43,397 nucleotides of DNA from Lachnospiraceae bacterium (GTDB taxonomy: Bacteria > Bacillota > Clostridia > Lachnospirales > Lachnospiraceae). The position numbers and the translations under genes are program-made. The notes below the pieces were generated by a model. That model was not told the origin of the DNA. It did no database searches and worked only from the letters and a program-made list of their open reading frames with translations. Of the stretch, positions 6,112-30,374 are shown one piece after another. Where the stretch lies: NCBI GenBank assembly GCA_024698075.1, contig JAILRP010000014.1, positions 1 through 43,397 on the forward strand, given 5' to 3'. Position 1 is the first letter of the stretch; each line of letters begins with the position of its first letter.

Positions 6112-6137
6112 CTTTTTTGTTCAAATTAAACACATAC

Positions 6138-6209: not shown

Positions 6210-6221
6210 GTACCTGACTAT

Positions 6222-6227: not shown

Positions 6228-6274
6228 CGAATCGGAACAAAAAAGCAAGCAGAATATGAATTACTTTTTGTCCA

Positions 6275-9535: not shown

Positions 9536-9548
9536 CACCATTATTATG

Positions 9549-10418: not shown

Positions 10419-10723
10419 CGCCTGTCCTCTCAAACTTTGTCCGTCTTATTTTACAATACCGCCCATGAAAAATCCACAGCGGGCACGTCTTTTTCATGAA
10501 ATACCGAACGCGGTCTGTCCTGCTGTCCTTATCGGTCAGCTTTCCACCATATATAGCGGCTCCCAATTCACATACAGTATCGCGGATACAATATATAGTA
10601 TGTCCCGCTGTCCTTGCCGGTCAGCCTTATGACATATGCAGTCAGCATATGCTGCCCATCCGGTCAATGAACCACTATATATAGCGATGGCCTCTCATGC
10701 CTGCAGCAAGGACTGCTCGGCCA
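10419..10723. repeat. Spacer with imperfect direct repeats
   Basis: This 305-bp gap between the GH13 and kinase genes has no convincing gene. A 28-bp direct repeat occurs at 10516-10543 and 10601-10628, with 24 of 28 positions identical and starts offset by 85 bp. A second motif, a TATATATAGCG core preceded by CCA, occurs at 10545-10558 and 10673-10686, with a partial copy (ATATATAGTATG) near 10591-10602. A palindrome, GCAGCATATGCTGC, lies near 10641-10655. These may be 3'-UTR elements of the GH13 transcript, binding sites, or relics of duplication. Confidence 0.6.
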
Positions 10724-15093: not shown

Positions 15094-15115
15094 AGTCATC
15101 CTCCCGGGATATCAT

Positions 15116-15415
15116 TCAGATCTCGTAGTCCATGCACGTACGGCTTGCCGTATACGGCCTTACCTTGCTGTCGGCGACCTCCACATGGGCCGGATTTTTC
15201 GAGTATCCGCGAAGTGCGGCTTCGTCCTCAAATGTGGAATCGAGCATCACATCGCAGTTTGAGCTTGCAAGAGGCTCAGTGTTGACCTTTATCTCAACAA
15301 GGCCCGGGATGCGGCCCTTAAGCCCTTCGAGTCCTTCCTTTATTCCCTGCTTTATCTGCTTCTTCTCGTCTTCCGGGCAGTCTTTTAAAACCCAGAGTAT
15401 CACATGCTTTACCAT
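15116..15415 (-). CDS. Dabb (stress-responsive alpha/beta barrel) family protein
   Basis: 99 aa from ATG 15415, with AGGAGAGG 5 nt upstream; the longer reading frame from 15460 has no ribosome site. It starts MVKHVILWVLKD, with KVNTEPLASSNCDVMLDSTFED in the centre and a KVRPYTASRTCMDYEI end, the usual pattern of single-domain Dabb proteins that form ferredoxin-like dimers. Biochemical roles in the family vary (stress response, monooxygenase-like), so none is assigned. It sits between folE and the FAD oxidoreductase gene and may be co-transcribed with them. Confidence 0.82.
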   Translation of the reverse strand: MVKHVILWVLKDCPEDEKKQIKQGIKEGLEGLKGRIPGLVEIKVNTEPLASSNCDVMLDSTFEDEAALRGYSKNPAHVEVADSKVRPYTASRTCMDYEI

Positions 15416-15483
15416 CTTTGCCTCTCCTTTTCTCCTGATTACTGTCATTATCCGCCGCATATTTACGGGCGCGGCGGCATCTC

Positions 15484-16053
15484 CTACCGTCCGAGCCTTG
15501 CCGCGAGCGCAGGTTCAGTCAGGAATCTGCCCCTCAGCTCCTCGGTATATGTTTTTGTGTTGTGATTTTTGATCCCGCGGGCCGTCACGCAGCTGTGGCA
15601 GCCTTCTATGGCAACGGCCACGTCACTGCTTCCGGTGATCTCGCTTATGATGTCGGCGATATCCTGCCCTATGCGCTCCTGGAGCTGGAGCCTTCTGCAT
15701 ACCATCTCGCACACCCTGACGATCTTTGACAGGCCTATGACTTTTCCGTCAGGAATATAGGCAACGGTCGCCTTCATGTCATACATGAGCGCCATATGAT
15801 GCTCGCAGTATGAGAATAGGGAGATGTCCTTCATGACAACGATCTTTTCCTTATCCGTGTCGATGTCGTCGTCGAACGTGCGGCTGAACATTTCAGCGAT
15901 CTCATGGTTCGTATAGTTCATGCCCTCGAAGACCTCGGCGTACATCCTTGCCACGCGCTTTGGCGTATCAACGAGCCCCGGCCTGTCCGGATCGTCGCCG
16001 ATGGCGGCAAGGATCCCTCTTATATGTTCTTCTATCGCATTTGTGTCTATCAT
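15484..16053 (-). CDS. folE: GTP cyclohydrolase I
   Basis: 189 aa, the normal length. Zinc and active-site features are present: [11 protein letters not shown] (Cys and His ligands), [18 protein letters not shown] and [15 protein letters not shown] (third ligand). It converts GTP to 7,8-dihydroneopterin triphosphate, the first step to folate and a precursor for queuosine-type deazapurines. No other folate or queuosine genes are nearby. Its ATG overlaps the stop of the nudC-like gene by 4 nt (ATGA). The adjacent NUDIX protein could act on a nucleotide or on dihydroneopterin triphosphate, but its zinc-ribbon type favours NADH as substrate. Confidence 0.95.
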
Positions 16054-16871
16054 CTTATCCTGTTTTCCTTAAACATTCTCATCATCTCGTTGGTGAGGCT
16101 TAAATTGTTCGGCTGAAGCTCAATCTCATCACGCTTTGTCCATTCGGCGTATTTGAGCTCGCCCTCATCCATCCGTATCGTATCGTCTCCAGTAACATCG
16201 CAGAAAAAGCCCGTCAGAAGATCCTGGGCCATTCCCCACGGCTGGGACTTGTAATATCTTATATTGGCAACATGAAGGCCCGTTTCCTCCATGACTTCCC
16301 TTGCAACCGTTTCCTCAAGGGTCTCGCCGATCTCCGCAAATCCCGCGACCAATGCATTGTGTGCGTAGCCCCTGCGGTATCTCGTGATAAGGAGGCTGTC
16401 GCCGTTTATGACTCCTACTATGACCGCAGGATTGATGCGCGGATAGACGATCCTGCCGCAGTTGCCGCACTTTAGCGCCCTTTCCGTATCATCCGGCGAA
16501 AGCGGTTCGCCGCAGGTTCCGCAGTACCTGTTGTCGTCGTACCATTTCCACAGGTGGTATGCGGTAAAAGCCGCAAACAGCTCCTTCCCCGAGCACATGT
16601 CGCGAACCTGCCGTATGGCCAGATGCTCCGCTCCGGAAAAGATGCTGTCCGGATCGTCATCCATGAGCAGGAAATACCCGGTCTCATCGACCGAGAAGAG
16701 ATACTGCGTTTTATGATCCCCGTAGGAAGTGTCCGGAAAGACAAGGCTGCCATCCGAGACATCCGCGATAAGCTTTCCTTCCTTATCAAACGCGAGAACG
16801 ATGTCACCGCTTTTTAGGGCGCGGTTCTTATATGAATTGTCAAGCCTGCTCGGCGCTATATCCTGTATCAT
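16050..16871 (-). CDS. nudC: NADH pyrophosphatase-like NUDIX hydrolase (NudC type)
   Basis: 273 aa. An N-terminal domain of about 115 residues is followed by a four-Cys zinc ribbon (CGTCGEPLS then CGNCG) and a perfect NUDIX box, [20 protein letters not shown] followed by TGL. After it the NudC signature is partly kept as SQPWGM where Escherichia coli NudC has SQPWPF. This supports hydrolysis of NADH/NAD or removal of NAD caps from RNA, with the altered motif leaving some doubt on substrate. The start ATG has AAGGA 4 nt upstream and lies 7 nt after the citrate synthase stop. Confidence 0.88.
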
Positions 16872-16878
16872 TTTTCCT

Positions 16879-18195
16879 TCAGTGTTTTTTCATTATGCTC
16901 TTGTATGCGGGGCGGACGATCTTGGTCCCGCTGACAAGCTCTTCTATGCGGTGGGCGCTCCAGCCCGCAACCCTTGCTATCGCAAAGATCGGAGTGAACA
17001 GCTCCCTCGGTATGTTCAGCATGTCATACGCAAACCCGCTGTAAAAATCGACGTTCGGCGATACGCCCTTGTATATCTTGCGTTTTTCGGCGATCACCTC
17101 GGGTGCGAGCGATTCGACCTTGCGGTAAAGCTTCAGGTCGTCCATGCGGCCCTTTTCTTCGCTCAGCTTCTCAACGTATTTGCGGAAAATGACTTCCCTC
17201 GGATCGGACTTCGAATATACGGCATGTCCCATTCCGTATATGAGGCCCTGTCGGTCGAAAGCCCTGCCGCTGAGTATCTTGGCAAGATATGCCTTCAGCA
17301 TTTCATCATCATCTATGTCGCCGACATTTTCCCTTATGTTGTCCATCATCTCCATGACCTTGATGTTCGCGCCGCCGTGCCTCGGACCTTTCAGCGAGCA
17401 CATTGCGGCCGCTATCGTCGCATAAGTGTCGGAGCCTGAAGATGTGACCACCCTCGTAGTAAAGCTTGAATTGTTTCCGCCGCCATGCTCCATATGAAGC
17501 ATCAGGGCTACATCGAGTGCCTTGGCCTCGGTCTCGGTAAACTTCGAATCCGGACGCAACAGCGTCAGTACGTTCTGGGCCGTCGAAAGCTCAGGCTGAG
17601 GACGGTGTATGTACATGGATTCAAGATTATCGTAATGGTTGTATGCATGGTAGCTGTATACTGCAAGCAGCGGGAACACGGCGATGAGCTGCATGCACTG
17701 CGACACAACGTTTTCGATCGAAGTATCGTCCGCATGGCGGTCATACGATGCAAGTGTCAGGATCGCCCTTGTCATCGAATTCATGACATCCTTCGTCGGG
17801 GCCTTCATGATGACGTCACGCGTAAAATTGGTCGGAAGCTCCCTCGCGTTCGAAAGGGTCATGATAAAATCATCGGATTCCTTCTTGTTGGCAAGATCCC
17901 CGAAAAGCAGCAGGTACGCAAGGTTCTCATACCCGAACGGAGTATTCCTGTATTTTTTTATCAACTCCTCGACACGGTATCCCCTGTACCAGAGCTGTCC
18001 GTCGCACGGATTCCCGTCCGGATCCCTTGCGATGATATTCGATATATTGGTAAGCCCCGCCAGCACGCCCTTTCCGTTAAGGTCGCGGAGCCCCCTCTTT
18101 ACGTCATAATTCTCATAGAACTCCTGCGGGATGCTGTCATTCTTCCAGATAAGGTCGGTATAAACCGAAGTGTCTATGCTGTCCCTCTTCTTCAA
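16879..18195 (-). CDS. gltA: Citrate synthase
   Basis: 438 aa from a TTG start at 18195, chosen because a near-perfect AAGGAGGG lies 6 nt upstream. An upstream ATG at 18225 would place that ribosome site inside the gene and lacks one of its own. Family landmarks are the catalytic His in MEHGGGNNS, MGHAVYSKSDPRE with the second His, and Asp in PNVDFYSGF. It condenses oxaloacetate and acetyl-CoA to citrate in the cytoplasm; related 2-methylcitrate synthase activity cannot be excluded. No aconitase or isocitrate dehydrogenase gene is adjacent. It is the first gene of the gltA-nudC-folE run. Confidence 0.92.
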   Translation of the reverse strand: MKKRDSIDTSVYTDLIWKNDSIPQEFYENYDVKRGLRDLNGKGVLAGLTNISNIIARDPDGNPCDGQLWYRGYRVEELIKKYRNTPFGYENLAYLLLFGDLANKKESDDFIMTLSNARELPTNFTRDVIMKAPTKDVMNSMTRAILTLASYDRHADDTSIENVVSQCMQLIAVFPLLAVYSYHAYNHYDNLESMYIHRPQPELSTAQNVLTLLRPDSKFTETEAKALDVALMLHMEHGGGNNSSFTTRVVTSSGSDTYATIAAAMCSLKGPRHGGANIKVMEMMDNIRENVGDIDDDEMLKAYLAKILSGRAFDRQGLIYGMGHAVYSKSDPREVIFRKYVEKLSEEKGRMDDLKLYRKVESLAPEVIAEKRKIYKGVSPNVDFYSGFAYDMLNIPRELFTPIFAIARVAGWSAHRIEELVSGTKIVRPAYKSIMKKH

Positions 18196-19105: not shown

Positions 19106-19657
19106 TCACTTCCCCGATAAATAAAAAGCAAGCGCATGAATTGCCTGCATGAAATCACCGCCGTCTATCAGGCATTTAATCTCCTCGGGAGTATGCAGAA
19201 CAACATTTAAAAACTCCGTGTCATCAAGCGACTGGTCCGATACCCTGCGGCAGCTTTCGGCGACGAATATGTACGCATAATTATCGGCAAGCGTCGCATT
19301 TTCCGGTATTGTCAGTATATGCCTCCAGTCGTCGGATACGTAGCCTGTCTCTTCGAGGAGCTCACGCTTTGCGGCTTCAAGTATATCGCTTCCGTCCTTT
19401 TTCTCTATGCCGCCCGCCGGAAATTCGGTAGTGACTTTTCCGATGCCCTGCCGAAACTGCCGGACGCAGATGTATCTGCCTTCCTCATCGGTTGCCGCGA
19501 CTACGACAAAATCCTTTCTGCTGTACGTGTAGAATGGCTCATAGACAGTGCCGTCGGGAAACCTGTAAGAAGACCGGCGAAAATCGATCCACTCATCGGT
19601 TATCACATGCTCACACGAAACCTCATCCCACTCAAGGGGATCTCTTCTGCCACCCAT
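19106..19657 (-). CDS. NUDIX hydrolase, ADP-ribose pyrophosphatase-like
   Basis: 183 aa from ATG 19657, which begins one base after the MFS gene stop (TGA-T-ATG) and has AAGGCGG upstream. The fold is shown by FVVVAATDEEGRYICVRQFR and the NUDIX helix EFPAGGIEKKDG plus AAKRELLEETGY. The region between the glycine and REL has one extra residue, and the usual first Glu is replaced by Ser/Asp. The PAGG motif and the VRQFRQG motif are typical of ADP-ribose or nucleoside-diphosphate-sugar pyrophosphatases. It would act in the cytoplasm on ADP-ribose-like compounds. It is the last intact gene of the partner-switch/MFS operon. Confidence 0.85.
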   Translation of the reverse strand: MGGRRDPLEWDEVSCEHVITDEWIDFRRSSYRFPDGTVYEPFYTYSRKDFVVVAATDEEGRYICVRQFRQGIGKVTTEFPAGGIEKKDGSDILEAAKRELLEETGYVSDDWRHILTIPENATLADNYAYIFVAESCRRVSDQSLDDTEFLNVVLHTPEEIKCLIDGGDFMQAIHALAFYLSGK

Positions 19658-19658
19658 A

Positions 19659-21884
19659 TCAGGCCGCCTTCTTTCTTCCCATGAACAGGAACGCGGCAAG
19701 GGCCAGAAGAACCGCTCCGCATGACAGCATCCATATGAGATTCTTTTCGCAAAGCTCTAAGACAAACGGAGCCGCCGCCATGACCGCGCTTGATATGACC
19801 GAATAGACCATGAGGCTTTCCGTTCCGTTTAGATTTTTCATGATCGCACCGTTCTTTAAGAAGAGGTCCGTAGACACCGGTGTCCCGATACCGTCGAGAA
19901 GTCCCGCGAGTGACGCCGCCACAAGTATGACAAGTGAATATGCGGCGGGAATGTCCATTATGAACATGACTGCCGCCCCTCCGAGCAGCACGAGCGCCTG
20001 GATGTTCAGGCTGCTCTTTATCCTGCGGCTCAGGATCTTATATAAAATCTCTCCAATATACAGTCCCGTCATGCCGTTTAAAAGATTGGCATATGTAAGG
20101 ACGACGCCGGGCAGTTCAAGCGACTGAATGCGCCCGGGTATGAGGCATACGATGAGCATGAGCAGGAAGTTCTGCGGCACGACTATCATGAAGATCGCAC
20201 GCCATGCCGATGCCGACGTGAATATATGCCCCGCTCTTGCCATGAGATTTTTCTCCATCTTCTCACTGCCTGACGCGGCCGTATGCGAAGCGATCATATC
20301 CCAGGGAATGCACGCCCGTTCAAACAGGAGATACAGGATGTGTCCGATCCCGCCCGCAAGGAAAGTCGCCTGGTAGCCGAACACGCCTGCGACCACGCCT
20401 CCGAGGCCGAGCCCGCAGAGCAGCCCTCCTATGACACCCATGTTGCTCGCGGTAAGGTTGCTGTTGCGCTCCTGCTCGTTTGAGCATCCTTTTGTTATGA
20501 CCTCGTTCCTGACCTGCTTGGTGCCCGCTGCCCCGGCTCCCGCGAAAAATCTCATGATTATCATCACGGCAGTGGATGCGGTAAAGAAGCAGCTGATGTT
20601 CGATATGACGATGACCGCAGCCGATATGCTCATAAGGAGCCTTCCGTTTATCTTCCGGCTTATGGCTGGCATTGCGATCATCCCCGCGATATCCGCTATC
20701 GAACAGATCGATATGGAAAGGGCCGCCGCCATGACCGGCGAAAGTCCCCATGCTCCCTGGTTCCACTCCTTGATCTGAAGTGCCGAGAATGACAGGCACA
20801 TGTATTCAAAAGTCAGCGACATGAAATTTCCGTACCTTATCGCCCTCGCTATGTTCTCAAACTGCTCGGGCACGTTCTTTCCGAACCGCCCGCTCTTTCT
20901 GAAGGCGATCATGTCGGAAAGCGTGAGCGATTCTTTCAGCACTATGACCGCGAGTATGATCGTCGCCACGAACATGAGCACCATGTTGATGACATTCTTC
21001 CTGATATAGCCCTCGGCTATGCGGCACGACAGCACCAGGCTTGAATCGGTGTTTTCGATGCCGACGGCAAACAGGTCGTCATCTTCGGGTATCTTATCCG
21101 TACGCTCTATATATATGTCCTTGATAAAATCATTTTCCTGCTTTTTCTTCTCGAGATAGTCTCCGAGGTCTGCGATCTCATCGATTGCAACTCCCTTTTC
21201 GAGCACCCCGTCTATGGATGCGCCGATATATGACGCAACGCCCGTGATGCTCTTCTGTGAGGCCTTGACAAATTCCTGTTCATAGACGGCGGTCAGGAAT
21301 ACGCCCTGCAGTATGATGGCCGCTACGGCCGCCGCTACGACCCTGTTTGCGCTCCAGTTCTTTCTGACACCGGCGGCAAGCAGCACAATGACAAGCACGA
21401 TAAGTATCCCGAGGCTTCCGAGCGTCGAACGCACCGCAGAAGGAAGCAGCGCACTGACGACGTTGTCCTTGGAATAATAGGTTTTAAGGATCCCTGCCGT
21501 ATTGTCGGCCCCGTCATGTATCTCCTGCTCTATCGCTTTGTAATCAGACATCGGGATGACGAAATGGTCTTCCTCCATCGTCGTTGCAATAACGCTGCCG
21601 TCCGCATCCTCGATGACTATTATGGAATCCATTCCTCCTTCTGCCACAAGGTCGCGGCTTCGAAGGAGCACCTGCCTGATGCCGTAATAATTCGACAGCC
21701 TCTTGCCGTACCGCAGTGATGTTTCGATCTCCTCGACCGCGCTTTCATTGCAGGTCACTATGTACTGTTCCTCATTGGCGAATGAGTAGTCAAGCACCGT
21801 AAGGTAGCTGAGCGCGCACAGTGCGAGCGCCGACATCACGGTGATTATCAGTATGATATAGTACTCACGTAAAAAAGCTTTCAT
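19659..21884 (-). CDS. MFS-type transporter with N-terminal membrane sensor-like region
   Basis: 741 aa, far longer than usual MFS proteins (about 400). TM1 spans residues ~10-30. It is followed by an extracytoplasmic segment of about 120 residues with a Cache-like strand pair (SIIVIEDADGSVIAT), TM2 (~157-177), TM3 (~183-205), a second extracytoplasmic segment (~206-300), TM4 (~303-323), then a 12-TM-like MFS body (~345-741) with MRFFAGAGAAGTKQVRNE in the region of the conserved loop. The N-terminal third looks like the input part of a histidine kinase or chemoreceptor, but no kinase follows. I infer a transporter gated by, or signalling with, external ligand binding. It lies 9 nt downstream of an orphan binding lipoprotein gene. 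Confidence 0.75.
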   Translation of the reverse strand: MKAFLREYYIILIITVMSALALCALSYLTVLDYSFANEEQYIVTCNESAVEEIETSLRYGKRLSNYYGIRQVLLRSRDLVAEGGMDSIIVIEDADGSVIATTMEEDHFVIPMSDYKAIEQEIHDGADNTAGILKTYYSKDNVVSALLPSAVRSTLGSLGILIVLVIVLLAAGVRKNWSANRVVAAAVAAIILQGVFLTAVYEQEFVKASQKSITGVASYIGASIDGVLEKGVAIDEIADLGDYLEKKKQENDFIKDIYIERTDKIPEDDDLFAVGIENTDSSLVLSCRIAEGYIRKNVINMVLMFVATIILAVIVLKESLTLSDMIAFRKSGRFGKNVPEQFENIARAIRYGNFMSLTFEYMCLSFSALQIKEWNQGAWGLSPVMAAALSISICSIADIAGMIAMPAISRKINGRLLMSISAAVIVISNISCFFTASTAVMIIMRFFAGAGAAGTKQVRNEVITKGCSNEQERNSNLTASNMGVIGGLLCGLGLGGVVAGVFGYQATFLAGGIGHILYLLFERACIPWDMIASHTAASGSEKMEKNLMARAGHIFTSASAWRAIFMIVVPQNFLLMLIVCLIPGRIQSLELPGVVLTYANLLNGMTGLYIGEILYKILSRRIKSSLNIQALVLLGGAAVMFIMDIPAAYSLVILVAASLAGLLDGIGTPVSTDLFLKNGAIMKNLNGTESLMVYSVISSAVMAAAPFVLELCEKNLIWMLSCGAVLLALAAFLFMGRKKAA

Positions 21885-21893
21885 ATCCCTTTC

Positions 21894-23096
21894 CTATCTG
21901 TATATCCGGTCTATGCCCCTAAGCAGGTCAAAAGTTGTTACAAATCCTGAATTTTTCGCCGTCGTCATGTTGAGCACGACGTGAGGCGAACTCGTGTAGA
22001 TGCACGGCTGGTCTCCGGCATTGTGCCCGTGGAAAACGTTGCTCGCAACCATCGCGGCATATGCGCCGTATCCTTCATAGTCGAAGCACGACAGACACAT
22101 CATCCCGCCGTTCTCGCTTATCGAATCACCGTCCCCTATAAGGGAAGGTATGCCGGCATCCGCGGCAAACGACGAAAGCGCCGGAGCATTCTCATCATCC
22201 ATGGTGCCGTATGCGAACAGTATGGCATCATCCTCGGAAAGGTCCGCGGATCTTAATGCCTCTTCAATCTTTTCATCATAATCATCCTTCAGGGATTCTT
22301 CCTCTGAAAAGTTGATCTCATCTACCACGACGCCAAGCTCGGCCGCCTTTTCGCGGTAAAGCGGATTGCCGGTTATGGTATCCATGCCGTTGACGGTTAC
22401 CATGCACAGCCTGTCGAATCCGAGCATGTTCCGGTAGCCTTCGAACTGCCTCTTGTACGGATTGGGCTCAACGAGCGCCCATATCCTGTCATCACCCGTA
22501 TCCTCCGCGGAATCGATGATCCCCGATGCGACCGGATCCGTTGCAAGGCATACGAGAAACGGGATGTCGAGGCCGAGATCCTTTAAAAAGATCCCCGGAT
22601 CGGTCCCGGTCGCAACGACCATGTCAAGCCTGCCGGCACTGCACTCCTCGGAAAGCTGTGCGGCTATCTCGTCATCATTGCCTTCTCCGATCATGTAAGG
22701 TTTTTCGTCAAACGATACGTACGGCCCGAGGTCCTGTGACAGCATGAAATCATAATATTCGTAAAAATCCTGCGGAGCCTTGGAAAAATCGACCCCTTCG
22801 CTTATATATCCCAGGGCCTGCAGACCCTCGGCAAAGCCCTTGAGGCACAGATACGAGCTCTCGATCGGAGGTCCGAGGTCCATGAACGCCAGGCGGAACG
22901 GCTCCCCGTCACTGCGGCATACGGGCTCCGTCTCGAACTCATAATCCTGCCCGGCGACATCTATCACCACATCGTTCCTTCCCGTGCATCCCGAAAGAAA
23001 AAGGGACATAATAACGAGAAGGACACTAACAGCCCTGAAGGTTCTGAAGCGTGTATTTGCCGTAGTGTTCTTTTGCATATACGGCGATCCTTTCAT
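21894..23096 (-). CDS. ABC-type substrate-binding lipoprotein (COG2984/PF04392-like), orphan
   Basis: 400 aa from ATG 23096, with AAGGAG 9 nt upstream; ATG 23078 is also possible. The gene start overlaps the end of the 487-aa gene by about 70 nt. A lipoprotein signal ends in LFLSGC (lipid-modified Cys near 37), so it is membrane-anchored outside. The body has the two-lobed binding protein pattern: FMDLGPPIESSYLCLKGF, VVATGTDPGIFL, FLVCLATDPVASGIIDSAED. In this family the binding protein is normally encoded with a COG4120 permease and a COG1101 ATPase; neither is here. It may present ligand to the adjacent sensor-MFS or to the membrane phosphatase (inference). Relatives bind small molecules such as aromatic amino acids. 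Confidence 0.78.
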   Translation of the reverse strand: MKGSPYMQKNTTANTRFRTFRAVSVLLVIMSLFLSGCTGRNDVVIDVAGQDYEFETEPVCRSDGEPFRLAFMDLGPPIESSYLCLKGFAEGLQALGYISEGVDFSKAPQDFYEYYDFMLSQDLGPYVSFDEKPYMIGEGNDDEIAAQLSEECSAGRLDMVVATGTDPGIFLKDLGLDIPFLVCLATDPVASGIIDSAEDTGDDRIWALVEPNPYKRQFEGYRNMLGFDRLCMVTVNGMDTITGNPLYREKAAELGVVVDEINFSEEESLKDDYDEKIEEALRSADLSEDDAILFAYGTMDDENAPALSSFAADAGIPSLIGDGDSISENGGMMCLSCFDYEGYGAYAAMVASNVFHGHNAGDQPCIYTSSPHVVLNMTTAKNSGFVTTFDLLRGIDRIYR

Positions 23097-24489
23097 ACCA
23101 GTTGTCTCCTTTCTCATCCGCATCGGTAATGTCATTATAAAACTCAAAGCAGCCCATCTCATGGGCAGATTTCATATCAGTCTCTCCGAACAGCCTGTCA
23201 AAGGCTTCCGGCGCAGGCGGTTTTGCCATCATCTCGAACGGCCCGGCATTGACCGCTCCGTCGCCCGTGTCAAACAGCATGTATATCGGACCGCTAAGGT
23301 ACCCCGAATCGTCAAAATCCCCCCGGGGCCCGACGGCGTCCGCATAGCCCGCATCGCGGAGCATTTCGCACGTGCTCCTTCTCCATCCGCGCAGATACTG
23401 TGACTGCAGTATCCCTCCATACCACGAAAATCCCCGGACATATGATGACATGAACCATGACAGGTACACGTGGGGCATGACTTTTCGTGCCTTTACTGCA
23501 TCGGTCAGAGCACTGCCGCCGTCCGAGCGTATGTCGATGTCAAGACAGCCGCCGCTGATATCGCGTCCCCTGAGGTGGCCGTCAGCGTCAAGGTTTATCC
23601 CGAAGCACTTCCTGTCAGAAGCGCACCCCCTGAACAGGAGCGATGAAAGCTTCCTGCCCTCATCGTCTGTGGCTTCATTGAGGGCAGTTATCGCGGCTTC
23701 ATCCGACAGGATATGGTATACAAGGCTTCCGTGGTCGCCAAAGTCTTTTTCGAAGAGCCCTGCAAAGACCGTCTCAGCCTCCATGTGCCAGAACTTCCCC
23801 TGCAAAATGACACCATACAGGCGGTCGTAAAGTCCCTCGCCCAGATAGATGACCTGGTCCGCGAACCTTCTGCACCCAAGGACCTGCGGGCTCTGGTAGA
23901 GGCTCTCCATTACGGAGCGTATCTGTTTTTTCACAAGATAGCTCCTTACATTTGCAAGGGCTTTGTCCTTGGTGCTCCTTGCCATGGCAGAAGTAAACGC
24001 GTCAGAAAGCGAAGCGGCCGCATTCGTCGGCATCTTCGGAAGCAGCGGTATGTGTTCGGCCCCATCCGTCCGTGAATATGCTATAAGTCCGCGTGCGTAA
24101 GTGCTGCTGTTTATCGGGACAAGTCCGAAGGACATCATCGGGACCGACGGGGCTGCGCCTCCGAACAGTTTCCCGAGGAGCCTTGCGTATATAAGATCTC
24201 CCTGAAATGACTGTGCGGAATACAGTCCGCCGAGATGGTTGGCCGTATATAATATTCCTTTCTGGAGAACGGCTGACGCACGCTCTGCCGCATCGGCACC
24301 AAGACGCTCAGCCAGATAGTCTTCACAGAACGAGATCAGGTCCTCCCTGCCGGAAAGCAGGGGAAACTCATTATTTCCTGACAGTTTTTGTATCTCATGG
24401 TCTATGTGGCCGTCCAGTGTCAGGACGGATGACATCATCTCATCGACCGTCGCATTGCGGCTCCTGACTGTTCTTATTATCTCATCCAT
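23026..24489 (-). CDS. Protein of unknown function, 487 aa
   Basis: I do not recognise this family. The protein appears soluble: no signal peptide and no membrane helix. The N-terminal ~90 residues look helical (VDEMMSSVLTLDGHIDHEIQ). The central part has motifs that look conserved in style: LYTANHLGGLYSAQSFQGD (~85-105), FGLVPINSSTYARG (~125-138), HIPLLPKMPTNAA, then MPHVYLSWFMSSYVRGFSWYG and SGYLSGPIYMLFD. The His/Asn/Gln-rich centre would suit an enzyme site. The ATG overlaps the TAA of the phosphatase gene (TAATG), and its end overlaps the binding-lipoprotein gene, so it is tightly coupled to both. Its place between phosphatase and binding protein suggests a role in the same signalling or uptake pathway. 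Confidence 0.75.
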   Translation of the reverse strand: MDEIIRTVRSRNATVDEMMSSVLTLDGHIDHEIQKLSGNNEFPLLSGREDLISFCEDYLAERLGADAAERASAVLQKGILYTANHLGGLYSAQSFQGDLIYARLLGKLFGGAAPSVPMMSFGLVPINSSTYARGLIAYSRTDGAEHIPLLPKMPTNAAASLSDAFTSAMARSTKDKALANVRSYLVKKQIRSVMESLYQSPQVLGCRRFADQVIYLGEGLYDRLYGVILQGKFWHMEAETVFAGLFEKDFGDHGSLVYHILSDEAAITALNEATDDEGRKLSSLLFRGCASDRKCFGINLDADGHLRGRDISGGCLDIDIRSDGGSALTDAVKARKVMPHVYLSWFMSSYVRGFSWYGGILQSQYLRGWRRSTCEMLRDAGYADAVGPRGDFDDSGYLSGPIYMLFDTGDGAVNAGPFEMMAKPPAPEAFDRLFGETDMKSAHEMGCFEFYNDITDADEKGDNWYERIAVYAKEHYGKYTLQNLQGC

Positions 24490-26267
24490 TATTCTTCGAG
24501 CCTGAAGGCGAGCATCGTAAGGTCATCAAACTGTTCGGCAGCGCCCACGAACTCATCGACATCCGCCCGAACGTTCGGCAGAAGATCCATCGGCGAACAC
24601 CCTGCATTCCGGCCTATCGTTATCTCAAGCCTCGTCATGTCATACAGTTCATTGTTCTCATTTGTGGCCTCGGGAACTCCGTCGGTATAAAGGAACAGCG
24701 TATCACCTTTTTCCATCTTCAGCGTACAGTTGACATATGTGATGTCTTCCATCGTGGCAACAGGCGGTTTTTTCCTCTCGGGCTTTACTATCTGTGTTTC
24801 TCCCGACGGCTTTAATATTATCGGATACTCATGTCCCGCATCCGAATAAGTGACTATGCCGGTTGATATATCAACTATGCCGAGCCATACGGTGACAAAA
24901 AGGGCTGCGTCGTTTTCGCTACACAGCTGGTTGTTCACGAAATAGAGAGTCTTTGCAGGATCAAGGCATGCATATGCATTGTCCTTTATCATGACTTTCG
25001 ATATCGCCATGAAGAGCGCCGCAGGTACTCCCTTGCCGGAAACATCGGCCATGACAAGCGCAAGATGGTCATCATCGAGCATGAAGAAATCGTAGAAATC
25101 GCCTCCGACCTCCTTGGCCGGATCCATCGTCGCATAGAGCGTGAATTCCTTTCTGTCCGGGAACGGAGGGAAAATCCTCGGGAGCATTGAGGCCTGGATC
25201 TCGGTGGCGATGCTAAGCTCCGCACCGATCCTTTCCTTCTCGGCGGTCACCGCGGTCAGGTTGTCCATGTACTCGTGAAGCCGCCTTATCATCGAGGAGA
25301 ACTCAGTCGAAAGAGAGGTGATCTCATCGTGGTCATTTCTGTCACTCTTTATCTTATCTGCGATGGCAGGATCCTTTTCGCGCGCGTACTGTGCGACCTG
25401 TCCTTCAAGAACCGCAAGCCTTTTTAAAACATTCTTCCTGACATAGCCCATGATGGCTGCCGAGAAAAGTCCGAGAACGATGACATATATGCCGACTATG
25501 ATGAGGGCCGTCGTTCTTATCGACCCGTTCACGAAGCTGTAATTGACATCGGTCAGAATGACTCCGAGCACCCTGTCGCCGTTCTTTACGGGCGTTGCAT
25601 AGCAGTACACATGCCCGTACTCGTTGTCATATGAATCCATCCTCTCCGTAGGCGCTCCGGTATTATATGCCGCCCAGAGATTGGGATGTATGGCCGGGTC
25701 CTGATAGAATTCGAGGCCGAGTGCCAGATAGTCCTTTCCGTAAACGGTCATTTTGTCTCGCGGACCGTCGAACATGAAGCACATCGTATCAGGCTCATCG
25801 ACCGGATAAACATAATATGCATAATCAAGTCCGAAATCATCCCTGACCTCATCGAACAGTATCAGGTATTTCAGATACATGTACCTGTAGTACAGAAAGG
25901 CAGTCTCATCATCGAGCTCCCTGCCCTTAAGCTCAGACCTGCGCGGGTTGTCGGGATAATTTTTCGCAAGCGTAATCCTGTATTCGTTCCGGTAGTCATC
26001 AAGGAGTTCCGAATAATCATAAGGTATCATCATCTCCTTGTAATGTGCGGCAAAGTATTCCTGAAGATCACCAAACTCATCGAGCTCATCATCCATCTGG
26101 TCTAAGATGTAGGAGTTGATCTTGGAAAGTTCATCCATGTACTGCCCGTAATATATCCTGTTCTGCGTGACATATGTGGCCACTGCACTGATGACGATCG
26201 TGATCAGGATGAATATGATGAAAATAGATCCAAATTTGGCCGCAAGCGAGCTCCTGTTACTGTTCAT
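24489..26267 (-). CDS. Membrane SpoIIE/PP2C-type serine phosphatase with extracytoplasmic sensor and HAMP-like linker
   Basis: 592 aa. TM1 (~13-32), an extracytoplasmic sensor of about 220 residues with Cache-like C-terminal strands (YCYATPVKNGDRVLGVILTD), TM2 (~257-280), a HAMP-like helix and coiled coil (~285-355), then the SpoIIE phosphatase domain: IQASMLPRIFPPF, EVGGDFYDFF (~388), MADVSGKGVPAALFMA (~415) and a C-terminal FDDLTMLA. Metal-binding Asp residues are kept. Such proteins dephosphorylate STAS antagonists of anti-sigma kinases in response to signals, and both partners are encoded upstream in this cluster. The start ATG has AAAGGAGA 6 nt upstream and follows the dehydrogenase stop by 14 nt. 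Confidence 0.92.
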   Translation of the reverse strand: MNSNRSSLAAKFGSIFIIFILITIVISAVATYVTQNRIYYGQYMDELSKINSYILDQMDDELDEFGDLQEYFAAHYKEMMIPYDYSELLDDYRNEYRITLAKNYPDNPRRSELKGRELDDETAFLYYRYMYLKYLILFDEVRDDFGLDYAYYVYPVDEPDTMCFMFDGPRDKMTVYGKDYLALGLEFYQDPAIHPNLWAAYNTGAPTERMDSYDNEYGHVYCYATPVKNGDRVLGVILTDVNYSFVNGSIRTTALIIVGIYVIVLGLFSAAIMGYVRKNVLKRLAVLEGQVAQYAREKDPAIADKIKSDRNDHDEITSLSTEFSSMIRRLHEYMDNLTAVTAEKERIGAELSIATEIQASMLPRIFPPFPDRKEFTLYATMDPAKEVGGDFYDFFMLDDDHLALVMADVSGKGVPAALFMAISKVMIKDNAYACLDPAKTLYFVNNQLCSENDAALFVTVWLGIVDISTGIVTYSDAGHEYPIILKPSGETQIVKPERKKPPVATMEDITYVNCTLKMEKGDTLFLYTDGVPEATNENNELYDMTRLEITIGRNAGCSPMDLLPNVRADVDEFVGAAEQFDDLTMLAFRLEE

Positions 26268-26281
26268 ACACTCTCCTTTTT

Positions 26282-27232
26282 TTACTGTCCGTCTTCCCTG
26301 CCGGATGCCGCAAGCCTTACAGTCCTTGATATAAGCTCATGCAGCGACTCATCTGACAGATACGCTATATGGGGCGAAAGAATGACGTTGTCCATCCGCA
26401 TGAGCGGACTGTCCGTATCATTAAAAGGTTCATTCTCAAAAACATCTCCGGCAAATCCGGCGATCTTTCCGGACTCAAGTGCCGCGATGAGGGATTGGGT
26501 GTCTACTACCGCTCCCCGTCCCGTATTGACTATGTAAGATGCGTCCTTCATCAGGCCGAATTCCCTTTCGGATATCATGTGCCTCGTCTCATCAGTCAGA
26601 GGAAGGTTCGGTGATATGACGTCCCCTGCCATTAAAACTTCATCAGCCGAAGATGCGGCCACGGCTCCCGAAGCGGTTATCTCGCAGGCCGGAACATAAG
26701 GGTCGTATGCAATGACTTTCATGCCGAACGCAGATGCATACTCCGTCACTTTCCTTGCTATCTGTCCGAACCCTATGAGGCCGTAAGTCAAGCATGAAAG
26801 CCTTCGGACAGGCCTGTCAATTGCAAGGTCCGGCGATGTCCATCTCCCGGCCTTTACAAAATCGGAATAATTGTTTACGTGGCGAAACAGGTTGAGCATG
26901 AGCGCAAACTGATGGACGGCAACCTCTTCCACGGCATAGCCCGGAACATTGAAGACTTCGATGCCGCGCGCCCTTGCCGCCTCCACATCCACAAGGTCGC
27001 ATCCCATGGCGGCTATGACTATCCTGCGTACGCTTGTGCTGAGCCGTTCTATGAGATCTGCGCCAAGAGGGGTCACGAGGGTGACTATGACTTCCCGCCC
27101 TTCGCAGGCAGCGAGCACTTCTTCATCGGTCCCGGCATCGAGCACGATTCCGGCGCCTCCCGCAGACTCAAACTCACTTTTCCATGCGTCAAGGCACGGG
27201 GTCGTGCTGCACGCAAACATGACGATGTTCAT
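26282..27232 (-). CDS. D-2-hydroxyacid dehydrogenase family protein
   Basis: 316 aa with two Rossmann domains. NAD-binding motif GLIGFGQIAR (~145-155), then AYDPYVP. Catalytic residues: Arg in VNTGRGAVVD, Glu in FENEPFND, His in LSPHIAYLS. This is the D-isomer-specific 2-hydroxyacid dehydrogenase family, which reduces 2-oxoacids to D-2-hydroxyacids with NAD(P)H or acts in phosphoglycerate oxidation; the substrate is not predictable. The start overlaps the aminotransferase stop by 4 nt (ATGA). An aminotransferase feeding a 2-oxoacid to a hydroxyacid dehydrogenase is a coherent two-step route from amino acid to D-hydroxyacid (inference). It is embedded between anti-sigma kinase and phosphatase genes. 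Confidence 0.88.
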   Translation of the reverse strand: MNIVMFACSTTPCLDAWKSEFESAGGAGIVLDAGTDEEVLAACEGREVIVTLVTPLGADLIERLSTSVRRIVIAAMGCDLVDVEAARARGIEVFNVPGYAVEEVAVHQFALMLNLFRHVNNYSDFVKAGRWTSPDLAIDRPVRRLSCLTYGLIGFGQIARKVTEYASAFGMKVIAYDPYVPACEITASGAVAASSADEVLMAGDVISPNLPLTDETRHMISEREFGLMKDASYIVNTGRGAVVDTQSLIAALESGKIAGFAGDVFENEPFNDTDSPLMRMDNVILSPHIAYLSDESLHELISRTVRLAASGREDGQ

Positions 27233-28389
27233 AAGATACCGCTTTCCTTTATCGCATTTACCGCATCCGTCAGGATATCGGGTTCCTCAACGAGCGCAAA
27301 CCTTACATACTGCCGCCCGTTCGGTCCGAAGAACGCACCCGGTGCGCAGAGAACGCCGCTCTTTTCAAGAAGGATATCACCGAATTCCTCAGAGTCCTCA
27401 TATCCTTCCGGCAGACGGCACCAGCAGAATATCGAGCCGTCGGGCGCATCGGCATCCCATCCGACCCTGCGGAGCCCGTCAATGAAAACATCCCTTCTCT
27501 TCCTGTATATCCCGCACAGATCATCGGTATACGACTTCGGAAGGGAAAGTGCCGCGGCGGCCGCCCTCTGAAGCGGGATGAACATCCCGAAATCTATGTG
27601 TTCCCTAAGAGTCCTTATGGCCTTTACAGCCTCGGTGTTTCCGACCGCAAAGCCGATCCTGGCTCCTGTTATGCAGAATGACTTGGAAAGGGAGAACAGT
27701 TCGATCCCGACCTCATCGGCGCCTTCCGCCTCAAGGAAGCTTGTGCCCCTGTCGAGGTCAAACACGAGGTCCCTGTAGGCTCCGTCGTGAATGACAAACA
27801 CATCATTGGCCCTTGCCCATCTGACGAGTTCATCAAAAAATCCGTCCCTTACGGTACATCCTATCGGATTGGACGGAAAATTGACGACGATGACTTTTGC
27901 CGCTTTTGCGGCATCTGCAGGTATTGAAAAAAGATCGGGCATGAAAGAATTTTCGCGAAGCAGCGGATAATAAACCGCATTCACCCCGGCGGTGTATGCC
28001 GAGGAAAGAAATCCCGGATAGCAGGGGTCCGGAATAAGGATGGTATCTCCCGGGTCGCAGAGTACAAGAAGTGCGTGCGTCAGTCCGGTCTGTGTGCCGG
28101 CTACGCTTGTTATCTGTTCAGGCAGAACGCTTACACCGTATCTGTCCCTGTAATGGCCTGTCAGGGCCTGTATCATTTCAGGTATGTCAAAAAGCGCATA
28201 CTTCCACGCATCCGGCTCATCGGCGGCTTCCGAAAGCGCACGCCTTACCTCGTCCGGTGCGGGAGAGTCCGGAGTTCCGATGCTGAGGTTATAAACCTTT
28301 CTGCCGCACCGCTCCATTTCCATTTTCTTAAGTTCGAGGCCAGTGAACACTTCCACGCCGAACTTTCTGATCTTCGATGAAAGGACCAC
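27229..28389 (-). CDS. Class I/II PLP-dependent aminotransferase
   Basis: 386 aa from GTG 28389, which has GAAAGG about 9 nt upstream; a TTG at 28398 overlapping the ATPase stop would touch that ribosome site but stays possible. Fold type I markers: LSIGTPDSPAP, VAGTQTGLTHAL, NFPSNPIGCTV, HDGAYRDLVFD and the PLP Lys in SLSKSFCITGARIGF (~233). The nearest named relatives by pattern are LL-diaminopimelate or aspartate-type aminotransferases. It makes 2-oxoacids from amino acids in the cytoplasm. It overlaps the dehydrogenase gene by 4 nt and abuts the HATPase gene, so these metabolic genes sit inside the signalling operon. Confidence 0.87.
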   Translation of the reverse strand: MVLSSKIRKFGVEVFTGLELKKMEMERCGRKVYNLSIGTPDSPAPDEVRRALSEAADEPDAWKYALFDIPEMIQALTGHYRDRYGVSVLPEQITSVAGTQTGLTHALLVLCDPGDTILIPDPCYPGFLSSAYTAGVNAVYYPLLRENSFMPDLFSIPADAAKAAKVIVVNFPSNPIGCTVRDGFFDELVRWARANDVFVIHDGAYRDLVFDLDRGTSFLEAEGADEVGIELFSLSKSFCITGARIGFAVGNTEAVKAIRTLREHIDFGMFIPLQRAAAAALSLPKSYTDDLCGIYRKRRDVFIDGLRRVGWDADAPDGSIFCWCRLPEGYEDSEEFGDILLEKSGVLCAPGAFFGPNGRQYVRFALVEEPDILTDAVNAIKESGIL

Positions 28390-28394
28390 TGCGC

Positions 28395-28808
28395 TCAACC
28401 TTTCAGATTCTTGCGGATGGTCAGTATGTTCTGTCCTCCGCTATATTCATATTTCACATCATCCATGCTCTTTTTGACCATGAATATCCCGAGTCCGCCA
28501 ATCTCCCTCTCCTCCGCGCAAAGCGTGATGTCGGGATCTTCCTTGGCCAGCGGATCGTATGGTATCCCGCTGTCCCGGAAAGTGATCGCGACACATCCGG
28601 GCTCGGCTTCCGTCTCGATCTCGATGACCGCCTTCCCGGTCCCCGGACTGTAGGCATAGCTTGCAATGTTAACAAATATCTCTTCCACGGCAATGTCGAT
28701 CTGGTACAGCGTCTTGAGCGGGCAGTCCACATCCTCGAGCGTACTGTCCACAAATGCGAGCACCTTGCTCAGATTGTCACGGACGGCACCGGTTTCCAAC
28801 CGTTTCAT
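28395..28808 (-). CDS. Anti-sigma-factor-type ATP-binding protein (RsbW/HATPase_c_2 family)
   Basis: 137 aa, the size of RsbW/SpoIIAB-like kinases. Bergerat-fold boxes: N box VEEIFVNIASYAY, G1 box FRDSGIPYDP and G2 box GGLGIFMVKKSMD. Such proteins bind a sigma factor or other target and phosphorylate a STAS antagonist; a SpoIIE phosphatase reverses this. The antagonist gene lies just upstream but beyond a terminator, and the phosphatase is two genes downstream. No sigma factor gene is present in the window, so the bound target is unknown. The start ATG has GGAAAGGAAA upstream. Confidence 0.9.
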   Translation of the reverse strand: MKRLETGAVRDNLSKVLAFVDSTLEDVDCPLKTLYQIDIAVEEIFVNIASYAYSPGTGKAVIEIETEAEPGCVAITFRDSGIPYDPLAKEDPDITLCAEEREIGGLGIFMVKKSMDDVKYEYSGGQNILTIRKNLKG

Positions 28809-28865
28809 AGCGTTTCCTTTCCACTTGCAGATGATCTTTCAGGCAAGTCAGGCAGCACTTCATAG

Positions 28866-28890
28866 AAAAAACGGGAGGCAGAACCTCCCG
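28866..28890 (-). terminator. Intrinsic terminator between STAS gene and HATPase gene
   Basis: On the minus strand CGGGAGG and CCTCCCG form a perfect 7-bp stem around a 5-nt loop, followed by T6 (28866-28871). It lies 31 nt after the STAS stop and 57 nt before the kinase start, so it should uncouple expression of antagonist and kinase. Confidence 0.85.
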
Positions 28891-28921
28891 GTGATTTCAT
28901 TGCGGAATATGATATCCCTTA

Positions 28922-29218
28922 TCATTCGATATTGAGTATCTCAGTAAAGCCCGTAACCTCAAATATCTCCTTGATCTCGTCGGCAACATTGCGGACAACC
29001 ATGGTGCCCTGCTTGTTCATGCGTTTCTGCCCGGCAAGAAGGACTCTAAGTCCGGCCGAAGATATATACTCAAGCTTTGCAAAATCGAAGACAAGCTTCT
29101 TGACATCATCAAGCAATCCCGAAAGCTCTTCTTCGAGCTGCGGAGCCGTGGTAGTATCAAGTCTTCCCTCGAGCGCAACGGTAAGTTCATCACCATTTTT
29201 TTCCTTATTGATCGTCAT
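28922..29218 (-). CDS. STAS-domain anti-sigma factor antagonist
   Basis: 98 aa, a single STAS domain. It has ALEGRLDTTTAPQLEEEL at the N-terminus and the phospho-site region LEYISSAGLRVLL; the likely acceptor is Ser54 (Ser53 next to it), aligned with the Ser of RsbV/SpoIIAA. It is the partner that, when dephosphorylated, binds the RsbW-like kinase and frees its target. It has its own strong promoter just upstream (TATAAT) and a terminator just downstream, so it can be made in excess over the kinase. The ribosome site is GGGAGAAAAG before the ATG. Confidence 0.92.
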   Translation of the reverse strand: MTINKEKNGDELTVALEGRLDTTTAPQLEEELSGLLDDVKKLVFDFAKLEYISSAGLRVLLAGQKRMNKQGTMVVRNVADEIKEIFEVTGFTEILNIE

Positions 29219-29278
29219 TTTCTTTTCTCCCTCGTATCAGGCACCGGATGATGCCAATGATTATATGCCAACAACTGC

Positions 29279-29307
29279 ATTATACTGTAACAGCGAAAAA
29301 AAAACAA
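29279..29307 (-). promoter_or_regulatory. Promoter of the STAS gene
   Basis: A perfect TATAAT (29279-29284) with TTGTTT (29302-29307) at 17-nt spacing on the minus strand. The -35 lies in a T9 tract directly after the cysK stop. The predicted leader is about 55 nt, with a small GGCA/TGCC hairpin. Confidence 0.6.
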
Positions 29308-29311
29308 GAAC

Positions 29312-30253
29312 TTACAGGTCTTCGGGCTCTTCGAAAAGCGGCGTCGAAAAGTATCTTTCTGCCGTATCGGGAAGCACTGTCACGACCGTTTTTCCGGGTC
29401 CGAGCTTTTGGGCAAGCTTTATCGCCGCAGCCACGTTGGTCCCGCTTGAAATGCCGCACAGTATGCCTTCCTTCCTCGCAAGGTTCTGTGCAGTGCCTAT
29501 GGCCTCTTCATCGGTTACGATATAGATGTCATCAAAAACAGACAGATTGAGTATCTCCGGGATTATCCCGTCACCGATGCCCATCTGAAGATGCGTTCCT
29601 ATGTTTCCGCCCGCGAGAATGGCTGCATTTTCCGGCTCGACCGCCCATATCTCAATGAAAGGATACTGGGCCTTTAAGACCTCTCCTATGCCGGTTATCG
29701 TGCCGCCCGTGCCTATGCCGGAACAGAACCCGTGGATCGGGCCTGCGACCTGCTCCATTATCTCGAGCGCGGTATGATTTTTATGTGCGAGTGTATTGTT
29801 GGGATTTTCGAACTGCTGCGGAACAAAGACGTTGGGATCCTCATCCCTCATCTTAAGTGCAGTCTTCAGACATGCATCCATGCAGGCGCCTATGTCACCG
29901 TCATCATGGATGAGCACAACCTCTGCACCGTAATGCCTGATGATCTTCCTTCTCTCTTCACTGACGGAATCAGGCATGATGATAATGGTCTTATAGCCTC
30001 TTACCGCACCCACGAGCGCAAGGCCTATACCCTGGTTGCCGCTCGTCGGCTCTACGATCACGGTATCTTTTCCGATAAGGCCTTCCCGCTCCGCCGCCTC
30101 GATCATGTTGAGCGCGGTCCTCGTCTTGATGGAGCCTCCGATATTGGTGCCCTCAAACTTTACCAGGACCTCTGCGGCCCCTTCCGGGACCATCCTGTTG
30201 AGCCTTATCATCGGTGTGTGGCCAACGGCCGAAAGAACGTTGTTGAAGATCAT
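29312..30253 (-). CDS. cysK: Cysteine synthase (O-acetylserine sulfhydrylase)
   Basis: 313 aa from ATG 30253, with GAGGAG about 5 nt upstream. Longer frames run into the tRNA-Ala gene and are not credible. PLP Lys in GTNIGGSIKTRTA (~40-45), substrate loop EPTSGNQGIG, phosphate-binding GIGTGGTITG and the Ser of GISSGTNVAA are all present. It makes cysteine from O-acetylserine and sulfide in the cytoplasm. No cysE or sulfate-reduction genes are close. A terminator hairpin ends only 14 nt before the start codon and directly follows tRNA-Ala, so expression probably depends on read-through or on an unseen promoter. Confidence 0.93.
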   Translation of the reverse strand: MIFNNVLSAVGHTPMIRLNRMVPEGAAEVLVKFEGTNIGGSIKTRTALNMIEAAEREGLIGKDTVIVEPTSGNQGIGLALVGAVRGYKTIIIMPDSVSEERRKIIRHYGAEVVLIHDDGDIGACMDACLKTALKMRDEDPNVFVPQQFENPNNTLAHKNHTALEIMEQVAGPIHGFCSGIGTGGTITGIGEVLKAQYPFIEIWAVEPENAAILAGGNIGTHLQMGIGDGIIPEILNLSVFDDIYIVTDEEAIGTAQNLARKEGILCGISSGTNVAAAIKLAQKLGPGKTVVTVLPDTAERYFSTPLFEEPEDL

Positions 30254-30267
30254 GCTGCTCCTCGTAT

Positions 30268-30300
30268 AAAAAATTGGTCGTAAGGAATCCTCCTTGCGAC
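30268..30300 (-). terminator. Intrinsic terminator between tRNA-Ala and cysK
   Basis: GTCGCAAGGA and TCCTTACGAC (30291-30300 with 30277-30286) pair over 10 positions with one mismatch around GGAT, followed by CAA and T6 (30268-30273). The stem begins one base after the tRNA 3' end. Confidence 0.75.
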
Positions 30301-30301
30301 A

Positions 30302-30374
30302 TGGAGCATACGGGATTCGAACCCGTGGCCTCGACATTGCGGATGTCGCGCGCTCCCAACTGCGCTAATGCCCC
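30302..30374 (-). tRNA. tRNA-Ala (anticodon CGC)
   Basis: The 73-nt cloverleaf starts GGGGCAT and ends ATGCTCC plus discriminator A. It has the G3-U70 identity pair of alanine tRNAs. The anticodon stem CGACA/TGTCG holds loop TCCGCAA, so the anticodon is CGC. T-loop GGTTCGAATCC is present. CCA is not encoded. Confidence 0.95.

Follow-up and report, generated by a model that had tools for sequence, protein, structure and literature searches.

SiaABCD is a sigma-independent or non-canonical partner switch that acts on c-di-GMP, and small clusters of the staphyloferrin A type combine a racemase-like pyridoxal phosphate (PLP) enzyme, a synthetase and an exporter of the major facilitator superfamily (MFS). 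Switches with other outputs, biofilm or secretion, are represented by SypA/SypE of Vibrio fischeri and BtrU/BtrV/BtrW of Bordetella in the available part of a published account (PMC8256260). Here we analysed a locus that shares with the RsbU/RsbV/RsbW and SpoIIE/SpoIIAA/SpoIIAB switches a PP2C phosphatase (SpoIIE), a STAS protein with a phosphoserine motif and a GHKL kinase (RsbW-like), and that also encodes an aminotransferase, a D-2-hydroxyacid dehydrogenase, a binding lipoprotein, an MFS protein with a putative sensor region (sensor-MFS) and U487, a protein of 487 residues. The locus occupies positions 19106-29218 of the window, the whole 43,397-nucleotide stretch analysed (forward strand, 1-43,397) of contig JAILRP010000014.1 (C15) of Lachnospiraceae bacterium GCA_024698075.1, an assembly (G000) of 2.49 Mb in 105 contigs that is 94.3% complete.

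We propose that this locus represents one version of a modular arrangement for producing, transporting and detecting a small molecule derived from an amino acid, with signalling relayed by the partner switch to an output other than a SigB/F/G-type factor; we put the chances of this reading at about even. Candidate genes of the synthase, secretion and receptor kinds are all present. An earlier note on the same DNA had named nine genes; all proved to be real open reading frames (ORFs) on the minus strand, where it had placed them, and the families it assigned were borne out by Pfam for every gene that has one.

A recurrent core linked to variable enzymes

Relatives of U487, the MFS protein or the lipoprotein led to 20 loci in 19 Lachnospiraceae genomes, the window included; these three proteins are thus partly present by construction, which is not the case for SpoIIE, STAS, RsbW or the other enzymes. 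Presence was scored by tblastn on the fetched stretches; L008, L041 and L046 lose flanking sequence to contig ends. The lipoprotein gene adjoins the sensor, alone or with the MFS, in all 19 visible flanks (L041 is cut), and an MFS is found in 17 of 18 loci (L041 and L046 cut; absent from L098). SpoIIE is present in 16 of 18 (L008 and L041 cut; absent from L043 and L098), lying on the opposite strand in L011, while RsbW was found in 8 of 20 loci and STAS likewise in eight (the window, L002, L012, L038, L042, L043, L045 and L097). An enzyme gene accompanies this set in every visible locus except L098 (18 of 19; L046 is cut), and its kind varies: U487 sets in five loci, non-ribosomal peptide synthetases (NRPS) in four (L039, L040, L041, L043), a KamA-type radical SAM enzyme (aminomutase) with a D-Ala-D-Ala-ligase-like enzyme in three (L037, L038, L042; L037 additionally has a D-2-hydroxyacid dehydrogenase), an acetyltransferase in three (L044, L045, L097), a GH3 amide synthetase in two (L008, L011) and a formyltransferase in one (L012). 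These family assignments rest on Pfam or NCBIfam matches of representatives and, for the enzymes of L008, L035 and L042, on similarity to those. A recurrent core of lipoprotein and sensor-MFS, usually with SpoIIE, is therefore almost certainly linked to variable enzymes, and the exchanged enzymes look biosynthetic. A lipoprotein profile at E<=1e-25 matched in 8 of 329 family genomes sampled, so that the module is uncommon, although 7 of the genera sampled have it.

Large NRPS genes adjoin the lipoprotein and sensor-MFS genes in L039, L040 and L043; the sensor flank of L041 is not visible. L098 (G041), at 8346-10561, has lipoprotein and sensor alone, a reduced or simpler pair in which SpoIIE, MFS and cassette enzyme were not seen.

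The form found in the window has a close counterpart in L002 (Lachnospiraceae bacterium RUI284; the same contig as G219:C105), which reads CysK-STAS-RsbW-aminotransferase-dehydrogenase-SpoIIE-U487-lipoprotein-MFS at 61-90% protein identity. Because L002 keeps the gene order and the U487, MFS and lipoprotein subtypes all occur in 3 of the 37 genomes of the genus, the same three each time, the window arrangement is more than chance. More distant lipoprotein relatives in nine further genus genomes belong to other module forms. A chance neighbourhood with no joint function could appeal to the variation of enzyme genes between loci, and is very improbable given the order in L002, the shared 3 of 37 genomes, a fusion of MFS and lipoprotein in L037 and the occurrence of a lipoprotein-MFS-U487 triad in another phylum (both described below).

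Further U487 forms differ in their first enzyme: L006 (G217) and L035 (G808) read racemase-like enzyme-SpoIIE-U487-lipoprotein-MFS, and L036 (G705) reads SpoIIE-U487-racemase-like enzyme-lipoprotein-MFS-RsbW. The earlier note had suggested checking whether its eight genes co-occur in other genomes; all eight recur in L002, but the aminotransferase was not found in the other 18 loci (17 genomes), three of which carry U487 (tblastn). Its inclusion of the NUDIX gene in the unit did not hold, as L002 has a FeoB-like gene between MFS and NUDIX, and L006, L035 and L036 were NUDIX-negative by tblastn. NUDIX and CysK were both dropped as members, since in the fetched stretches of the 20 loci tblastn detected neither outside the window and L002. 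The intervening L002 gene, at 14810-17155, encodes a 781-residue FeoA-FeoB-like protein, a label taken from reading the sequence by eye.

U487 and its relatives

U487 (23026-24489, minus strand) had been put forward as a protein without a family, and so it remained: neither Pfam (E<=0.1) nor NCBIfam (E<=0.01) contains a model that it matches, and loose thresholds applied to its relatives returned one chance-level Pfam match (GYF_2, 0.14), in 1/5 and 1/10 members. Comparison with solved structures by sequence gave a best E of 0.38, a 5-row profile gave nothing at E<=5, and an AlphaFold2 model built from two sequences had a mean pLDDT of 33.7 and was not used. A BshC-like or IucA-like protein would be a speculative candidate identity. 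The protein is rare, occurring in 1 of 200 family genomes, in 1 of 398 phylum genomes (3-row profile) and in 4 of 299 family genomes (5-row profile). Two of these last four, G808 and G705, have it in the module, and two, G682 (E 7.6e-59) and G139 (E 1.4e-6), outside it. The G682 relative lies beside a methyltransferase (L061, 8412-10521), and that of G139 beside M29-like and homocysteine S-methyltransferase-like proteins (L062, 1513-4777).

More distant relatives proved informative. Three Nitratidesulfovibrio vulgaris plasmid records carry one, and in both megaplasmid regions that were opened (L060, pDEVAL01, 3118-9203; L067, 4694-10749) a lipoprotein and a long MFS precede it; the long MFS of L060 has the same four-segment sensor layout as that of the window. 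In the five-protein set from Nitratidesulfovibrio, profile E-values were 2.6e-27 for the lipoprotein, 4.5e-21 for the MFS and 1.3e-19 for U487. Another relative (hhalign probability 99.2) is encoded close to one terminus of a linear Streptomyces sp. NBC_01420 plasmid (L065, 752-11432), in a cluster whose annotated or scanned genes include a methyltransferase, a PLP decarboxylase-like enzyme, an SDR, an amidinotransferase, an MFS, a FemAB-like protein and an ATP-grasp protein with an L-amino-acid-ligase C-domain. Ensifer has a weakly similar protein (hhalign probability 73.5) next to an acetyltransferase. The position of these relatives, behind a lipoprotein and sensor-MFS in Nitratidesulfovibrio and within a biosynthetic cluster in Streptomyces, makes U487 probably a biosynthetic enzyme.

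Attractive as the idea is, we do not claim a D-configured substrate for U487, whether a D-2-hydroxy acid supplied by the dehydrogenase or a D-amino acid supplied by the racemase-like enzyme. The residue that we take to be the second catalytic tyrosine of alanine-racemase-like proteins is tyrosine in L036 and serine in L006 (7064-8206) and L035 (14795-15946), which makes racemase activity doubtful; these two proteins may catalyse another PLP reaction.

Biosynthesis need not imply communication. NRPS and other biosynthetic genes lie beside the MFS, and an MFS_3-type transporter lies beside the Streptomyces U487, as would be expected if a producer exported an inhibitory or chelating metabolite through the MFS while lipoprotein and switch monitored the outside and adjusted production, with no message passing from cell to cell. 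This explanation, which differs from the proposed signalling module mainly in purpose, seems unlikely to us: among the locus proteins scanned, Pfam pointed to none with a resistance or immunity function, and a dedicated receptor and switch exceed the needs of simple export.

The lipoprotein and the sensor-MFS

The lipoprotein gene (21894-23162, minus strand) encodes a protein with an LSGC lipobox that matches PF04392 (ABC_sub_bind; 43.2 bits against a cut-off of 25.9, E 3.7e-11), as do 12 of 15 lipoproteins of the locus set at E<=0.01; its true start is probably at 23096 or later. The earlier note had called it an orphan, and indeed ABC permease and ATPase are absent among the ten proteins scanned (19106-30337). 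Next to it, the 741-residue sensor-MFS (19659-21884, minus strand) scores 53.7 bits for MFS_1 against a cut-off of 33.4 (E 2e-14), with Pfam recognising the MFS part only (residues 363-674). The N-terminal region of about 345 residues, ahead of this domain, has four hydrophobic segments enclosing two ectodomains, and after residue 370 nine hydrophobic windows, some overlapping, exceed the threshold. An AlphaFold2 model from two sequences had a mean pLDDT of 34.9 and was not used.

MFS_1 was confirmed in all ten further MFS proteins scanned. Sensor and MFS form one protein in the window and in other loci; in L044, L045 and L097 the sensor has its own gene, placed between those of the lipoprotein and the MFS. 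Four hydrophobic segments were found in 17 of 19 sensors; L046, cut by a contig end, has three, and L012 has two, which rules out a universal four-segment layout. MFS and lipoprotein are fused into one 1147-residue protein in L037. Because of this fusion, and because an MFS lies next door in 17 of 18 visible loci, the lipoprotein very likely has the sensor-MFS, rather than an ABC transporter, as its working partner.

The same fusion would also suit binding-protein-assisted uptake, in which a nutrient derived from an amino acid enters by way of lipoprotein and MFS, is processed by the enzymes, and is matched in supply by switch-controlled expression. The MFS would in that case be a secondary transporter that receives its substrate from a lipoprotein. 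The switch-less triad in Nitratidesulfovibrio fits such a role, and transaminase and 2-hydroxyacid dehydrogenase reactions also occur in amino-acid fermentation. The NRPS, GH3 and D-Ala-D-Ala-ligase-like enzymes of sister loci, however, build rather than degrade, and the Streptomyces U487 relative belongs to a biosynthetic-type cluster; we accordingly regard uptake as rather unlikely.

Partner-switch genes and gene organization

The three switch proteins recognised by the earlier note hold up on Pfam, NCBIfam and motif reading, and their motifs are intact. The 98-residue STAS antagonist (28922-29218, minus strand) exceeds the cut-offs of both PF01740 (E 1.8e-16) and TIGR00377; its YISSAGL motif contains ISSAGL, found in seven of seven STAS sequences read from module loci, the serine of which is presumably the phosphorylatable residue. 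The 137-residue RsbW-like kinase (28395-28808, minus strand) scores 79.9 bits for PF13581 (HATPase_c_2, E 2.1e-22) and displays by eye N and G boxes, which we take to be the GHKL serine-kinase motifs. In the 592-residue membrane phosphatase (24489-26267, minus strand; PF07228, 149.6 bits, E 1.3e-43), the motifs GGDFYDFF, ADVSGKG, YTDGVPEA and FDD are invariant across three homologues, their conserved aspartates being presumably the metal-binding residues of a PP2C-type phosphatase; an ectodomain lies between hydrophobic segments 15-33 and 255-273.

Between kinase and SpoIIE lie the genes for a 389-residue class I/II aminotransferase with a TTG start (27229-28398, minus strand; Aminotran_1_2, E 2.9e-47), whose nearest NCBIfam models, LL-diaminopimelate aminotransferases, score below their cut-offs, and for the 316-residue D-2-hydroxyacid dehydrogenase (26282-27232, minus strand; 2-Hacid_dh_C, E 5.5e-56, and NCBIfam). 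The NUDIX protein matches its Pfam family at E 3.6e-12. Neighbours had been described as overlapping throughout. Most do, by 4 nucleotides (nt) for kinase/aminotransferase and for aminotransferase/dehydrogenase, 1 nt for SpoIIE/U487, 137 nt for U487/lipoprotein with the longest ORF (71 nt with the next in-frame ATG) and 41 nt for MFS/NUDIX with the longest ORF; but gaps separate dehydrogenase and SpoIIE (14 nt), lipoprotein and MFS (9 nt), and STAS and kinase (113 nt).

The last of these gaps contains a hairpin of eight pairs with a T6 tail (28890-28872, minus strand), the shape of an intrinsic terminator. Its outer GGGAGG/CCTCCC stem and T-tract are kept in L002, where the interior differs, being longer and containing a small hairpin of its own; because this inner part exceeds the loop limit of 8, a simple terminator scan of L002 did not report the hairpin. 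Predicted folding energies of the two stretches folded were -14.4 and -18.1 kcal/mol. Inverted repeats (AAAAGCGGG...CTCGCTTTT) were read by eye after STAS in L038, L042 and L045, with none evident by eye in L012 and L063. The window stretch has 15 terminator-like sites, where shuffled sequence gives 9.2 on average (sd 3.0), and L002 has 13, where it gives 11.3 (sd 3.5); since shuffles give many, one such site is weak proof, and the argument rests on positional conservation. STAS may have its own transcript, or be produced in excess over the kinase. Because the hairpin follows STAS, a single operon from STAS through NUDIX is doubtful.

Output of the switch

The earlier note had found no sigma factor in the locus, and this absence extends to the assembled genome, in which the SigB/F/G model returned RpoD, FliA and one weak match, on contig C105, all below its cut-off in the 94.3% complete assembly. 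Nine of the ten core-bearing genomes tested have no SigB/F/G factor over the cut-off, G076 alone passing. We therefore think it likely, with some reservation, that the output is something other than a SigB/F/G factor. If the kinase instead acted as anti-sigma factor to FliA, to RpoD or to a sigma factor that escaped recognition, the locus would be a conventional RsbU/V/W system, and the enzymes would be its passengers or its targets. FliA (TIGR02479, 266 bits against 189.6) and RpoD are at hand for such a role, as is the weaker C105 match, and a sigma gene may be missing from the incomplete assembly. The result from nine of ten core-bearing genomes speaks against this, as do the enzymes themselves, which accompany the core in 18 of 19 loci as passengers would not, and we judge such an output quite unlikely.

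The same genome carries a second switch cluster (L063; G000:C98:2500-13992), encoding at 6062-9031 STAS, a 224-residue protein with no Pfam or NCBIfam match, SpoIIE and RsbW; the 11.5 kb covered there show no lipoprotein or MFS.

Different cassettes beside recA and trmD

Several loci share a chromosomal site. Beside recA, L038 and L042 read STAS-KamA-ligase-MFS-lipoprotein-SpoIIE-RsbW-recA and L045 reads STAS-SpoIIE-lipoprotein-sensor-MFS-acetyltransferase-RsbW-recA, so that STAS and RsbW are outermost in both and the interiors differ. Beside trmD, L039 and L040 have SpoIIE-MFS-lipoprotein-NRPS, and L044 and L046 have an extra membrane-protein gene and SpoIIE-lipoprotein-sensor, L044 also carrying an acetyltransferase. 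RecA was confirmed in L038 and L045, and TrmD in L039 and L044; the TrmD of L040 and L046 was assigned from its resemblance to these.

Trees of MFS, lipoprotein and SpoIIE were built for 15 common loci. The MFS tree groups by enzyme type across genera, and lineage grouping was rejected (approximately unbiased (AU) test, p 1e-9). The lipoprotein tree also prefers enzyme type, with lineage grouping not rejected (AU p 0.095), while the SpoIIE tree prefers lineage, enzyme-type grouping being borderline (AU p 0.055). Enzyme type required five changes, the minimum, on all three trees, a count that none of 5000 shuffles reached; because genus labels were uninformative on the same test (5000 of 5000), this count cannot part enzyme type from lineage. 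These patterns suggest, short of proof, that the sensor-MFS moves together with its enzymes and that SpoIIE is left in place.

Proposed mechanism

In the proposed module, aminotransferase and dehydrogenase would convert an amino acid to a 2-hydroxy acid, which U487 would join or modify. The MFS would carry the product through the membrane, with export the likeliest direction, and the lipoprotein would bind this product or a related molecule outside and present it to the sensor region, the SpoIIE ectodomain or both. Binding of ligand would alter SpoIIE activity, SpoIIE would dephosphorylate STAS, and STAS would draw the kinase away from a target other than SigB/F/G. Whether the molecule sensed is the one made is a point on which we lean slightly towards no.

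Several observations weigh against this proposal. Product, ligand, direction of transport and target are all things that we infer, and U487 also occurs outside the module, in G682 and G139. By tblastn, SpoIIE, STAS and RsbW were all absent from the Nitratidesulfovibrio stretches fetched; L043 and L098 have no SpoIIE; and neither STAS nor RsbW was found in the fetched stretches of L006, L035, L011, L037, L039, L040 and L044. Because of these triads and loci, the switch is not an obligate neighbour of the core. FliA and RpoD, being present, could be targets, and the STAS and kinase of the window may also serve the second SpoIIE, that of L063. The AU results for the lipoprotein and SpoIIE trees count on the same side.

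More tentatively still, the loci may represent a class of chemical communication in which a fixed switch without SigB/F/G output is combined with interchangeable cassettes of synthase, lipoprotein and sensor-exporter, swapped at fixed chromosomal sites, with U487 as a new amino-acid-conjugating family. The synthases of such a class might be the U487 set, NRPS, GH3, aminomutase-ligase and acetyltransferase, each with a matching lipoprotein and sensor-exporter. If the proposal is right, a core that is nearly always found with its own synthesis genes offers candidate signal molecules and receptors, as well as a candidate RsbW-type switch with non-SigB/F/G output in Lachnospiraceae, and U487 becomes an enzyme family worth characterising. 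The recA and trmD sites would then be natural experiments, in which the site and the switch genes are the same and the synthase and sensor differ.

Comparison with known systems

A search of titles and abstract openings did not find this combination, which is weak evidence of absence since most subscription journals and bioRxiv lie outside its coverage. The locus proteins score far below the cut-offs of the NCBIfam equivalogs for RsbW, SpoIIAA, SpoIIAB and SpoIIE (in the SpoIIAA/SpoIIAB/SpoIIE set, 57.3 of 114.75 bits for TIGR02886, 29 of 135 for TIGR01925 and 28.4 of 490.8 for TIGR02865), and the SiaA equivalog NF038263 gave 64.9 of 700 bits. Unlike the RsbU/RsbV/RsbW and SpoIIE/SpoIIAA/SpoIIAB switches, the locus lies in a genome with no SigB/F/G factor over the cut-off, and its parts are tied to a lipoprotein, a sensor-MFS and enzymes. 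With SypA/SypE and BtrU/BtrV/BtrW it shares the logic of STAS, kinase and phosphatase and an output not known as a dedicated sigma factor, whereas the available part of the account of those switches describes no transporter-sensor with an exchangeable biosynthesis cassette (PMC8256260). The module resembles small clusters of the staphyloferrin A type in having a racemase-like PLP enzyme, an MFS and a possible ligase, and departs from them in U487, which matches no Pfam model and hence can be assigned to no synthetase family. The window lipoprotein, finally, shares the fold family of PF04392/COG2984 binding proteins (TrpX type), but in place of the permease and ATPase of the corresponding ABC systems its likely partner is a sensor-MFS, in one locus part of the same polypeptide.

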